Shown here: one piece after another, positions 1-42,132 of the stretch
How positions within the stretch are numbered: the first letter of the stretch is position 1
Layout: every line of letters begins with the position of its first letter
NCBI GenBank assembly: GCA_902777385.1
Contig: CACYTP010000014.1
Location: 1-47,745, forward strand
Source of the DNA: an uncultured bacterium
Lineage (GTDB): Bacteria > Cyanobacteriota > Vampirovibrionia > Gastranaerophilales > Gastranaerophilaceae
Direction: 5' to 3'
DNA length: 47,745 bases
Program-made: the position numbers and the translations under genes
The notes under the pieces: model-generated
Seen by the model: the letters and a program-made list of their open reading frames with translations, nothing else
Told to the model about the DNA's origin: nothing
The model's database searches: none

Positions 1-254
1 CAAGTAGCCTTGCGACCGTGGCAATCCAGCCGTTTGTTCTGCTGTTGATACTAAAGATTTTACACTATCTGAAAGGTCTGACCCCTCACCCGAAAATCTG
101 ACTTTCGCTTTGCTCAAGTCGATTTTCCGCCCTCTCCCGACGGTAGAGGGCAAATTTTCTATTCCAATATAGCTGAATTTCTCAGCTACAAAATCCTGTA
201 AGCCCTTACTACGAGAGGATTTTACCCCCCCCCCCTATGCTTAAATTCAATCAT
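1..254 (-). pseudogene. Left-edge reading frame held out of phase by an 11-G tract
   Basis: On the minus strand an ATG at 254-252 follows a GGAGG ribosome binding site (267-263) at 8 bases. A TATAAT (292-287) lies further upstream with TTGCAA 16 bases before it. Six codons in, the frame meets 11 consecutive G (235-225) and stops at once at TAA. With 9 or 12 G the frame would stay open for about 75 codons to the window edge; with 10 G it would stop at TAG shortly after. The downstream part overlaps hairpin-rich repeat DNA, so the product may be repeat-encoded rather than a conserved protein. I do not recognise the peptide. It is either a phase-variable gene in the OFF state, a decayed repeat-borne frame, or a homopolymer-length error in the assembly. 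Confidence 0.45.
17..223. repeat. Composite hairpin-rich intergenic repeat
   Basis: This stretch is more GC-rich than its surroundings and holds several inverted repeats: AAAATC/GATTTT with inner GACTT/AAGTC near 94-126, GCCCTCT (129-135) with AGAGGGC (145-151), AGCTGA (171-176) with TCAGCT (182-187), and AAAATCCT (190-197) with AGGATTTT (216-223). The first part (17-35) is identical over 19 bases to 47697-47715. This style of arm is typical of dispersed bacterial intergenic repeats. Confidence 0.6.
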
Positions 255-286
255 GATAATATCCTCCGTGGTTTTTATACATTATC

Positions 287-314
287 ATTATAAACTATTT
301 TTGGGATTTTGCAA
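287..314 (-). promoter_or_regulatory. Promoter for the poly-G frame
   Basis: On the minus strand TTGCAA (314-309), a 16-base spacer and TATAAT (292-287) precede the GGAGG and ATG of the left-edge frame. The -35 box matches consensus at four of six bases. Confidence 0.4.
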
Positions 315-7503: not shown

Positions 7504-8796
<1,293 letters not shown>

Positions 8797-8940
8797 TTAA
8801 TTGTACTTTTAACAATCATTATTATAAAATTAAAAAAGAAAATAGCAATCTTTTGTGCTTTAATGTTAAAAGAAATATATTTATGTAAAAATTTCTTAAT
8901 AAATAATTTTATTTTGGCAAAAATCAGACTTGATAATCTT

Positions 8941-8970
8941 TATAATCTTGTGTAGTAAGGAGTAATAGTG
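8941..8970 (+). promoter_or_regulatory. Candidate -10 box, ribosome binding site and GTG start of the GH13-like gene
   Basis: TATAAT (8941-8946) is followed by AAGGAG and a GTG start at 8968. No good -35 box was found at standard spacing. Confidence 0.4.
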
Positions 8971-11900
8971 AAAGTTAGTTTAAATCAGACAATACAGTCA
9001 TCTAAGCAGCCTAATTTTAAAGGTCGTGAAATTGCAAAAGACGAATATGGCGAAAGGTATTACAAATGGAGTGCTCCGTTTGATCCGTCACGATTTGATT
9101 GTTATTTGGATGTATATCCTGTACAACCTGACAGAAACGGAGACTATTCCTCTAATGATTTTAAAAAGAGATACAAAGATATAAGAACCGGTAAAGACTC
9201 AATTCAACTAAATGCCGGTATAAACAATATTGATTTAGACTATATATTTGGCAGAGTTCAGGATGCACCTTTTGCGTACAGATACAGATTACAGCCTAAA
9301 GGCAATCCGTCTGCTCCTCCAATTTTTATGGTAGATGCCGGAGATGTAGTAGATAAACGCACATACGGCAATGGTGATTGGGAAAGCGTATATAATATTG
9401 TTGTTCCTACCTCAAGCATGGGTGGTAAAGCCGGTGCTGCAATACTTATTGGTGCAGATAATTTTGATGCCAGATATATGTACGACAAAAACGGTAATAT
9501 TGTACCAAATCCTGATGCAGAAAAGAATTTAAACACTTTCAAAAACTTTTCAAACCACATTGGCGGTTCTCTGGCAGGGGTACATCAAGCATTAAGAGAT
9601 GGACGACTTGATCCTTATTCAATAATATTTTATTTACCTCATACATCAGGTGACAAATTAAGTTCTGCCGGATATTGGCTTGAAAGCGGATTTCAGCTTT
9701 CAGCCGCAGGCGATACAATTGATAATTTTACAAAATTCCAAAATGAAATGTTTGCAAAAAGTAAAAAACTCGTAATGGATTCGGCTTTAACCAGTGAAGG
9801 CATGAGCGGTATCCATATTCAGAGTATATTACAACACGGAGCAGACGATGTATTTTTCGACTGGTTCAGAGCCAATTCGCTTAAAAATATGACAGCAAAA
9901 ATTGGTGCCTTTGGAACAAAAACTCAATATATTCGCCATAAATTAATCAATGCACCGGCAACTCCTGTTCAGGATGCAAACGGACATATAACATGGAAAA
10001 AGAATGTCAAGTATAACAAGCATAATCCTACTTATGTACAGGTTTACAACGTAGATCAGGCTTCTCCTGAGCAAGTTACAAATCCTAATTTAAAAATAGA
10101 CAAATACGGCAATCCTAACGGTTCAAATCCGATGAGATACGGAACTCATAATGACACTATTATGGCATACTGTTTCCCTATTAAATATGATACATATAAG
10201 GATAATGTTGACAGACTTAACGAATTGAACAAAAATCTCAGGCAGCAAAAGAAGCCTGTTATTCCTGTAGAATCATATATGGGAACAAGAATATTAACTA
10301 AATTTGAGGGCTTTGAATTTGAGAACAAAATTGAAGGCGGTTTCTATACATGGGATGCAAATGCCGATATCGCAAAATTTGATTATGCGGATACGGTAGA
10401 AGATTTGGAAGATGCAATGCACCTGCCGTTGAATGAAAGAAAAGCATATTTTCTGAATAAAGCACAAAAAAGAGCCGAAGTTCTTGATTATGCGGTTTCT
10501 TCTCTAAATTACTGGATTGGTAAAACCAATCAGGAATATAATCTTTATGTTGCACAAAATCTCAGAGGCATGGACATAAATAATGCGGCAGAGGCCGGCA
10601 AATTTATACAGGATAAAATTAAAAAGGGAATTTTGCCTGAAAAAATTAATCAGGAAAAAATTAACACAGAAATTATAGAAAACGTATTAAACGGAGACTA
10701 CTTATTACACGGAAAAGACTCTGTTGACAATTTCCACGACACAATTTTGGGCGGGTTAATGGCATATCCTCTTGAAAGCACAGAAGCAGGTAAAGATATT
10801 CTTGCACTGTTTTCAACTCCTTACATAACAAACAGAGCAACAAAACCTGAATATATCGGCAAATCAAGAATTGAGCTTTTAAAACACAGAAATCCTCATC
10901 TTACGGAACAATATGAAAATGTATACAACCTTACAACAAGAATGTATGCAGAAGAAATGTATGATTTTGCAAGAAAAGTTATAGATGATATCAATGCAGA
11001 TTTACCAAACAACTCAAAACTTAATCGTGACGGTGATACATCCGACTACGGAAAATATGTTATTCCTATTATTACGCAGGAAATTGCAAAATTTGCTGTT
11101 GTAAAAGGGTTATTCCCTGATGTTGACTACAAAATCAACAAAGAACGAGGCGGTATAACTTACGATTATGACGAAATGAAAAAGAAATCGCTTAAATCAC
11201 TTGGAATAAATCTTACAAATCAGGAAAACGAAGCGGAAGATTTGGTTCTTAAATTAAAAAGAGGAATTCGCAATATTTCTGAATCTGACAGAAAACACCT
11301 TGTAAAAGCAATCCACAAAATGATTGACGGAACAAATGTAAAAGATTTTGAAATGGCAGAAATGATAGTTGACAGAACAGGACTTGGAATGCAACTCAGA
11401 GTGGATGCCGCAAAAGATTTTTCTAATATGGACGGATTACGAAACGGTGCCGACAGATTTGACGATAACTGGAATCAAGTTATAAGGGTTTTGAATACAA
11501 TCGGTTCAAACGTAAGAAAAGTTAACCCAAATATATACATAGTTCCTGAAATTACAAACGAAGTTGATTTGTACAAACTTGGCGAAGGCGATATGTCAGA
11601 TCGTTTCAACTGGAAAAAAGGTGTATATGACGGTAAGTTTGAATATACAGACGATTTAATCATGAAATTAATCAGAGAAACTCAAATTGATGCCGTTGCA
11701 AACTACCAAAAATACTTTACCAATATTGGAGCTATATACGGTAAAAAAGGTGATGACGGTCAGGATTGGGGCGAAAATCAGGACGAAAGGATGTATAACA
11801 TATTCAGACAAGCTAAGTCCGAAGACCGTTATGACAGAAACAGAGATGGTGCAAATGATGCGGCAGAAGCATTTTTATTCTCTGTTCCTTATGATTCAAT

Positions 11901-16119: not shown

Positions 16120-16812
16120 ATGAGCAAAGAAGATTTTACTGCATTTACTCTGGCTGAGGTATTGATTACTTTAGGTATTATTGGTGTCGTTGCCGCTATG
16201 ACACTACCTACATTAATTCAAAAACAGAACGACAGGGCAAATATTACAAGATTAAAAAAGGTATATTCTTCACTTTCTCAAGCCTATCTGATGGTAAAAG
16301 AAGAACATGGTTCAAGTGAAATCTGGGATATTAGAGATGGCAACCAAGCAAGCACAAGAACTATTTTTTCATACTTCGAACCTTATTTCAGAATTGTAAA
16401 AAAATGTGATAATGTAGCAGGATGCTGGTCAGATTCTACGAAATCACTATCCGGACAAGCAGCACATTGGTCAGGAGTAAATTATCTAGGGTACGGATAT
16501 TATGGTTTCATACTGGAAGACGGAACATATATGTCACTAGATTTGTGTGGGCAACAACTTGCTTATTTCGGCTTACCCTATAATTCTAATGAAATGAATA
16601 CCCAGCTTGTCCTGTTTTTTGTAGATGTTAACGGGAATAAAAATCCAAACACGTTAGGAAAAGATGTTTTTGGATTTGCCGTTGGGAAAGAAAAAATCAT
16701 ACCTTTTGGTGCAGGTAATAACTCAGCTAACTGCAATCGCAGTGTTAATAATACCTTAGCAGGTTATGATTGTGCTTACAAAGTTCTAATAGAAGATAAA
16801 ATAAGTTATTAA
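16120..16812 (+). CDS. Type IV pilin-like / type II pseudopilin-like protein
   Basis: A 230-residue protein with a class III signal: a short leader ending in A then FTLAEVLITLGIIGVV, the hydrophobic N-terminal helix cleaved by prepilin peptidase. The residue before F is Ala rather than the usual Gly, as in the second pilin of this window. The C-terminal domain contains several Cys (for example CDNVAGC and CNRS) that may form disulfides, and PNTLGKDVFGF, a pattern common in these minor pilins. It likely acts at the inner membrane or on the surface in a type IV pilus or secretion system whose other parts are not here. Confidence 0.85.
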   Translation: MSKEDFTAFTLAEVLITLGIIGVVAAMTLPTLIQKQNDRANITRLKKVYSSLSQAYLMVKEEHGSSEIWDIRDGNQASTRTIFSYFEPYFRIVKKCDNVAGCWSDSTKSLSGQAAHWSGVNYLGYGYYGFILEDGTYMSLDLCGQQLAYFGLPYNSNEMNTQLVLFFVDVNGNKNPNTLGKDVFGFAVGKEKIIPFGAGNNSANCNRSVNNTLAGYDCAYKVLIEDKISY

Positions 16813-30562: not shown

Positions 30563-30788
30563 ATTTCCTTCTTTCTTTTTATTAATTAATTAATAATTGC
30601 AAACGTGAATAAAGGGTATGTAATACGTCTGCATATTAAAGGGTAGCATGAGCATAATTCGTTTTCAAGTAATAATTAAAGAAAATCTCCATACATATTA
30701 TTAAGTGATTTAATGGGTGAATAAAAGTAGACTTCTACTGTTAATTATGATATTATGAGGCATATAAATACTACAGGAGAATAACTCA

Positions 30789-32000
30789 ATGAATTATCGC
30801 AATATTAAACTTTTAATCGGGGGGGGGGCAATTTGCCTTTCTTTACTGCTCTGTAGCCAATCTTTAGCCGAAACATTAAAGTTACCCCGAATAGAAGGCA
30901 GTAATTATTTACAAGATTTTCATCCGATAAATTCTCCGCAACCTGCACAAAATTTTTATAAAGATGAAAGTTCTGCAGCTGAAAAGTATAAATCTTTCCA
31001 AAAGTATATCAAAAACAGAAATAACAACAGAATAATACTGGAAGAAATCGAGCGTAACTGGGTAAAACCTGAAAATTTGTCAGGACATAAACAAATAGCC
31101 CTTGTATATAAATTGTCGCCAAAGAAAAATATTTCTGATATAGAAATCTTACATTCTTCCGGCTCAATAGACTTTGACAAGTCAATAATTAACGCTTTTA
31201 ACAAATCAAAACCTATATTCAAATCAATAAATACAGACGACGCAACAAAGGATATAACTGATAACCGTAAATCTTACAAAATAAAAATGGTAATAGATTA
31301 TACTAACGGTAAATTATACAGCAGTACAGGCAGTTTTATGTCAGGTTTCAATCGGGGAGTCGGATTTAGGACTGAACCGCTTGCTGATATAACTTTTGAC
31401 AAATATAACTATGACGATACAATATCATCTTTTATTCACAGAGAATGGGACAGGTCTAATATTAAAGATTTCGGATTTGCAGTAGTGTCCGTTGACATTG
31501 ATAACTACGGTAATTGGTCAAAACCGATAATAAAAATATCTTCAGGCTCAACTGATTTTGACAAAACGGCACTCAATATTGCACAATATGTCGGAAACAA
31601 TACACCGATACAAAAAATTCACAATAATGCACATACTATTGGAATACATTTTACTAATTACGATACTTCAAAACTATCTGAAGCATACAAATCAAACTCA
31701 GAAAAATATCTATACACATATATGAATAGTCTTAATTCGCACCTAAAACTTTATTGGCCGCCATCAAGAAATATTATTGCAAACACTTCAAAAGCTGCAC
31801 AGATAAAATTTAACGTTAAAAAAGACGGGACTTTCGATGATATAAAAGTGTATAATTCGAGCGGTAATCCTGCATTTGACGAAACAGCCGTCAACACCGT
31901 AAAAAAAGTTCATCACTATAAACCGCTTCCATCAGATTACGATGAAGACAAAATTGAAGTCATTATGTCATTTGAAGTAAATGTTTTCGGTCACAGATAG
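30789..32000 (+). CDS. Exported protein with three TonB C-terminal-like domains; G10 tract in signal peptide
   Basis: A 403-residue protein with a signal peptide (hydrophobic 8-22, likely cut at SLA-ET). Three copies of a TonB C-terminal-like fold lie near residues 85-172, 210-290 and 312-398; each carries the S-S-G-x-x-x-F-D-x-(S/T/E)-(I/A) motif, with WPP/WVKP before copies 1 and 3. TonB normally has one such domain plus a long Pro-rich membrane anchor, which is absent here. A run of ten G (30819-30828) encodes three glycines in the signal peptide; 9 or 11 G both lead to TAG within about 13 codons. GGAG precedes ATG. Likely periplasmic, interacting with the envelope; function inferred only. 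Confidence 0.85.
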   Translation: MNYRNIKLLIGGGAICLSLLLCSQSLAETLKLPRIEGSNYLQDFHPINSPQPAQNFYKDESSAAEKYKSFQKYIKNRNNNRIILEEIERNWVKPENLSGHKQIALVYKLSPKKNISDIEILHSSGSIDFDKSIINAFNKSKPIFKSINTDDATKDITDNRKSYKIKMVIDYTNGKLYSSTGSFMSGFNRGVGFRTEPLADITFDKYNYDDTISSFIHREWDRSNIKDFGFAVVSVDIDNYGNWSKPIIKISSGSTDFDKTALNIAQYVGNNTPIQKIHNNAHTIGIHFTNYDTSKLSEAYKSNSEKYLYTYMNSLNSHLKLYWPPSRNIIANTSKAAQIKFNVKKDGTFDDIKVYNSSGNPAFDETAVNTVKKVHHYKPLPSDYDEDKIEVIMSFEVNVFGHR

Positions 32001-41508: not shown

Positions 41509-42132
41509 TTATTTTCCTTTGTACATAACTGCTCTTGCAGCAGGTGAGTTAGGAAGAATAGATTGACCACCGAATTTAACCGGGTAAATATCGGTTGGGC
41601 TCTTAACTTCACAATTGCTATCTGAACCTGATGAGCAAGATACGATAGTGTTAGGATTCTTAGCACCATTGATATCGATTGCACCTTTACAAATACCGGT
41701 ATTAGTAGCAGTTACATCAGCACAGTTTCCTGCAGATTTAGGGAATGTAAATGCCATACCATCGTTAAAGTAGAATGTAAAGTTGTTGCTTGCAGAAGTA
41801 CCGAATTGGCCATTTGCTGCAGAAGCACCCCAAGCTTGTCCGTTGTTAGTACTTACAACGTTCATTCTGTTCTTAAACAAGTTGTAAAGTGAATTTGAAG
41901 TACCATCAGTTTGAGAACCTGTAGCTTGGCTCAAATCATAGTCATCAAGAGCTATGTTCAAAACTACAGCCTGTGATAAAACTGATAATGCTTTTTTGTA
42001 AGCTGTTCTGTACTGTGCACCTTGAGTTGCATTCATCAATGTAGGCATTGTCATAGCTGCTACAACACCGATAATACCCAAAGTAATCAATACTTCAGCC
42101 AAAGTAAACGCTTTTTTACCGTTCATAATCAT
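41509..42132 (-). CDS. Type IV pilin-like protein
   Basis: A 207-residue prepilin with GKKA-FTLAEVLITLGIIG, the cleavage and methylation site, and a hydrophobic helix. The C-terminal domain is Asn/Ser/Gly/Thr-rich with Cys pairs (CADVTATNTGIC and CSSGSDSNC) and a GAIDINGAKNPNT motif that also occurs, in variant form, in the pilin at 16120. GGAGG lies 10 bases before ATG 42132. Probably a major or abundant pilin; assembly genes are elsewhere. Confidence 0.88.
   Translation of the reverse strand: MIMNGKKAFTLAEVLITLGIIGVVAAMTMPTLMNATQGAQYRTAYKKALSVLSQAVVLNIALDDYDLSQATGSQTDGTSNSLYNLFKNRMNVVSTNNGQAWGASAANGQFGTSASNNFTFYFNDGMAFTFPKSAGNCADVTATNTGICKGAIDINGAKNPNTIVSCSSGSDSNCEVKSPTDIYPVKFGGQSILPNSPAARAVMYKGK

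Follow-up and report, generated by a model that had tools for sequence, protein, structure and literature searches.

Phase variation through poly-G tracts is best known from Neisseria and from the epsilonproteobacterial colonizers. The Campylobacter phasome consists mainly of modification and other surface genes, each in its individual context. In Neisseria, pilC and porA are phase-variable through poly-G/C, the pilC tract lying in the signal-peptide region, and the major pilin is varied by gene conversion. The lic genes of H. influenzae carry tetranucleotide repeats flanked by alternative start codons.

The locus considered here is a run of ten G in the signal-peptide region of a TonB-like gene of an uncultured member of the Gastranaerophilaceae, a family of non-photosynthetic Cyanobacteriota to which genome sizes, genus count and the prepilin motif also point. 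It lies in the window, by which we mean the whole 47,745-nucleotide stretch of DNA that was analysed (contig C14 of the 2.32-Mb genome G000). The tract resembles that of Neisseria pilC in its placement, but the protein families differ. Most of the other long G tracts of this genome precede prepilin-type genes and, unlike the Neisseria major pilin, these are tens of separate pilin genes, each with its own candidate switch. With lic they have in common a possible strong/weak/off output from two starts, the differences being that the repeat is a homopolymer and that a TTG is the sole, putative, second start. Two accounts of the Campylobacter poly-G/C phasome (PMC6321876, PMC8355987) describe a similar arrangement of G/C homopolymers in and between genes, many per genome, with frame-shift ON/OFF control of surface-related genes; the Neisseria surface genes hmbR and hpuA (PMC3786947) likewise contain or follow a poly-G tract. 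What sets the present case apart from Campylobacter is the use of a single duplicated leader cassette for tens of prepilin-type genes, and the family that carries it is unrelated. A search of the literature by title and abstract for phase variation, homopolymers or pili in Gastranaerophilales/Melainabacteria returned nothing relevant, and no description of a large poly-G phasome of this kind was found in the literature so searched.

Table 1. Long G tracts of the window and the elements around them
Feature	Position	Strand	Remarks
Shine-Dalgarno-like CAGGAG	30774..30779	+	5' of the ATG at 30789; identified from sequence
TonB C-terminal-domain protein, 403 aa	30789..32000	+	ATG start; ON (in frame) at G10
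G10 tract	30819..30828	+	Codons 11-13 (GGG GGG GGG) and first base of GCA (codon 14); hydrophobic region of signal peptide
Leader cassette	1..290	-	Promoter-like TATAAT, GGAGGATATTATC, ATG, leader, G tract, repeat-rich extension; runs off contig end
G11 tract (C11 on +) of prepilin-type leader cassette	225..235	-	Out of frame with its own ATG; gene cut by contig end

The initial annotation had placed a G10 tract within the signal peptide of a TonB-like protein, and this is borne out: the run is exactly ten G long, the N-terminus MNYRNIKLLIGGGAICLSLLLCSQSLA is, as judged by eye, a signal peptide, and the domain matches agree (Pfam TonB_2 at 5.9e-22 in two stretches, the better at residues 311-395; TonB_C at 1.4e-19; NCBIfam TIGR01352, tonB_Cterm, at 5e-22), the TonB C-terminal domain scoring over the curated cut-off. 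A TonB energy transducer proper is defined by an inner-membrane anchor, a Pro-rich spacer and an ExbBD partner. Here an N-terminal hydrophobic segment was found and a Pro-rich spacer is not apparent in the sequence; 'TonB-like' is used here for a protein with one or more TonB C-terminal domains preceded by a signal peptide, a role as TonB energy transducer being unproven. (The AlphaFold model has a mean pLDDT of 31, the alignment being too shallow.) When the tract is changed in silico, the consequences claimed earlier are recovered on recomputing the frame: 11 G gives 22 aa ending at CTG-TAG and 9 G gives 25 aa ending at CTT-TAG, so that the protein is lost either way. Tracts of 8 or 12 G truncate it likewise, and the frame is regained at 7 and 13 G. 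No alternative in-frame ATG, GTG or TTG was found in the first 60 codons of the ORF.

The tract is longer than chance allows. GGG accounts for 62 of the 688 glycine codons in the main ORFs of the window, and three stand consecutively in the tract; the seven G8 matches of the window were reached in none of its dinucleotide shuffles. Over the whole genome the run-length census gives five runs of G7, one of G8, none of G9 and 35 of G10-G13, and this jump marks the long runs as a separate class rather than the tail of a background distribution. The TonB-like tract is a homopolymer beyond chance length at which the gain or loss of one G alters the product. These are two of the features by which a contingency locus is recognized, the others being length variation between strains or within a population and reversible switching of expression. 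The proposal that it is a contingency switch is partly supported, by its context, a genome-wide class of long G tracts between start codon and surface-type gene. The further statement that the window holds two contingency-like loci needs enlarging: the tract at the left edge is real, but there are 35 in the genome, and the two in the window differ in kind.

The difference is that 34 of the 35 (loci L010-L042, the left-edge tract included) share one duplicated promoter-RBS-ATG-leader cassette, the TonB-like tract being the only one outside it. The commonest form of the cassette is ...TTATAATGATAATGTACAAAAACCACGGAGGATATTATC-ATG-ATTGGATTTAAGCATA-Gn-TAAAATCCTCTCGTAGTAAGGGTTTACAGG..., with variants. 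Its flanks are near-identical and its tracts are 10, 11, 12 or 13 G long; length therefore changes faster than sequence. The cassettes mostly precede prepilin-type genes: a match to PF07963 (N_methyl) lies within 1 kb on the same strand at 24 of the 35 tracts, and five of the 11 tracts lacking one sit at contig ends. The cassette genes carry the N-terminal methylation motif by which type IV prepilin-like proteins are recognized; in five representatives PF07963 scores above the curated cut-off in two and slightly below it in three, and the FTLAEVLITLGIIGV motif is invariant across all five proteins. In 21 cassettes the frame is open from the tract to the prepilin motif, typically (A)FTLAEVLITLGIIGVVAAMTLP, and the remaining two leader frames hit a stop within about 35 codons. 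Repeat-like in-frame peptides (of LLPRNDM and CHPELVSGS types) occur between the leader and the FTLAEV motif, for example at L010, L029 and L033; a prepilin peptidase would remove these segments. The window also contains prepilin-like genes at 16120-16812 (+) and 41509-42132 (-) that have no G tract.

Our reading, which we hold to be likely, is that G10 is a translational phase-variation switch of the TonB-like gene, ON in this assembly, and that the gene has joined, on its own, a poly-G phasome that extends through the genome; the gene is, in other words, probably a phase-variable locus within that large phasome. Replication slippage would add or remove G in the tract, and the altered count would change the reading frame within the signal peptide, with the envelope protein made at 10 (or 7, or 13) G and cut to 21-26 aa at 8, 9, 11 and 12 G. 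Slipped-strand mispairing is the simplest account, supported by the anatomy of the locus and by comparison with paralogs and relatives; we infer a high slippage rate at this tract and a surface phenotype of the switching. The main part of the phasome would be the repeated cassette (promoter, RBS, ATG, short leader and G10-13) ahead of prepilin-type genes. The frame consequences together with the lack of an early in-frame restart, the gap in tract lengths, the shared leader with variable tracts, the frame left open to the prepilin motif in 21 cassettes, the occurrence of both phases in relatives, a syntenic pair differing by one G and the spread of tracts through the family all support the switch.

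The most serious competitor, which we nevertheless consider unlikely, is that the homopolymer is neutral or transient, a mutable G10 that arose when the CA next to an ancestral G7 became GG through two substitutions and that is not selected as a switch. It draws on the ortholog in the sister species G005 (81% identity, the sole match at E<=1e-30 among 383 family genomes; the retrieved sequence matches public contig CACWHC010000002.1 of RUG10582 exactly), which reads ATC GCA GGG GGG GCA, that is GCA followed by G7, where the window gene reads ATC GGG GGG GGG GCA. The two (ATCGCAGGGGGGGCAATT in G005, ATCGGGGGGGGGGCAATT in the window) are of the same length, and the proteins read IAGGA and IGGGA. 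With one genome per species compared, G10 is therefore not conserved between the two species and is lineage-specific; if the sister state is ancestral, G10 grew on G7. The in-phase state of the TonB-like gene and its position apart from the cassettes also suit neutrality. Against it, products of such drift should be rare in this genome, because runs of 8-9 G are nearly absent from it, and a G10 would be hypermutable in effect anyway. The occurrence of long tracts in some relatives between genes or beside a metabolic-looking gene does mean that the presence of a tract is, by itself, no proof of a switch.

The phase of the cassettes raises two other alternatives. As assembled, none of the 32 cassettes with a clear SD-ATG has its tract in phase with that leader ATG, and the TonB-like gene, unlike every one of them, is in phase. 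None of 20 cassettes with an open prepilin motif is in phase, against a mean of 5.2 when tract lengths are shuffled (P 0.001), and the tracts of 12 or 13 G occur in cassettes in which those lengths too are out of phase. Three cassettes with interrupted tracts, L104 (GGGAGGGGGG), L105 (GGGTGGGGGG) and L106 (GGGGGAGGGGG), show the same lack of phase with the ATG. An in-frame ATG, GTG or TTG upstream of the tract or at its edge exists in the assembled frame of 21 of the 34 cassettes and in none of the other 13, and in most cases it is the TTG that follows the ATG by 4 nt (ATGATTG), so that 'off' may in many cassettes mean 'weak'. This is the basis for a graded switch, applying to the cassettes and not to the TonB-like gene, in which tract length would select among strong, weak and off. 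An in-frame TTG is also found in L104 and L105, whose downstream frames are open, and the open prepilin frame of L105 is possibly used by way of it. However, TTG is a weak start and lies farther from the SD, and TTG is missing from that place in the sister leader ATGAGCGAATTTACACCTA; on balance we regard the graded switch as rather doubtful.

The uniform phase could also reflect programmed slippage by RNA polymerase or the ribosome, in which the DNA keeps its length and a set proportion of transcripts or ribosomes shifts frame, an explanation more relevant to the cassettes and one that the counts just given favour, as does the retention of an open downstream frame in the interrupted, slip-resistant L104 and L105. 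It is made improbable by in-phase members in four relatives and by near-identical copies that differ in tract length, as DNA slippage predicts, and the TonB-like gene, already in phase, has no need of it. An error of assembly or sequencing in homopolymer length, suggested by a draft assembly in which several contigs end in a cassette, is very improbable, since G10 leaves the TonB ORF whole, the tract class recurs in five assemblies, each with its own leaders, and random errors would leave no gap at G8-G9.

The relatives in question (G005, G007, G009 and G033) have analogous leaders of different sequence in both phases, with 5/25, 6/25, 4/22 and 2/17 tracts in phase. Over the five genomes, G000 included, 17 of 109 prepilin tracts are in phase with the SD-ATG and 92 are out, against an expected one-third, the binomial P of 2.5e-5 being a guide only, because genes related to one another are not independent data and the tracts of G009 and G033 were read in part. 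The prepilin cassettes thus display differing lengths, conserved flanks and both phases, with only out-of-phase copies within G000. The comparison of G000 with G005 tracts yielded a single secure syntenic pair, G12 (L039 of G000) against G11 (L204 of G005).

Runs of at least 10 G are present in 93 of 117 family genomes and 36 of 41 genera, with a maximum of about 120-124 in one genome of ~2 Mb; in a wider sample of the phylum, runs of exactly 10 G are numerous in several genera of the family and mostly number 0-9 elsewhere, despite larger genomes. A tract-less genome of the same genus has 6 PF07963 matches as against 62 in G000. The tract-bearing genes of G086 include an epimerase, a GDP-mannose-dehydratase-like gene, a TPP enzyme and a GT-D-like protein, and several tracts there lie just upstream of GGTATAAT, as in promoter-type switches. 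At L147 and L148 of the same genome, four G9-G11 tracts lie directly 5' of TAAAAGTGGTATAAT or a close variant, an arrangement of promoter-spacer type; at L138 (about 1097 and 2553), tandem paralogs carry G10 and G9 in corresponding positions, a 3-nt difference keeping the two in frame. Scans of viral contigs found no match to the cassette; a degenerate prepilin pattern gave one match there, L210, with a poly-C tract. On this IMG/VR contig a prepilin-type gene at about 8735-9100 has C10 in its leader after ATG TTA TAT TCA, the same arrangement with C in place of G.

The phasome built on the cassette is a more interesting result than the TonB-like tract. Our picture of it is a tentative one, to which we give rather less credence than to the switch in the TonB-like gene: a single module placed before tens of prepilin genes, nearly all of them out of phase, would allow rare slippage to raise one or a few pilins per cell, with leaders specific to the species and with single envelope genes recruited individually. 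A phasome that spans the family, and that several genomes have built by duplicating a leader ahead of pilin-type genes, would represent a distinct way of varying the surface.
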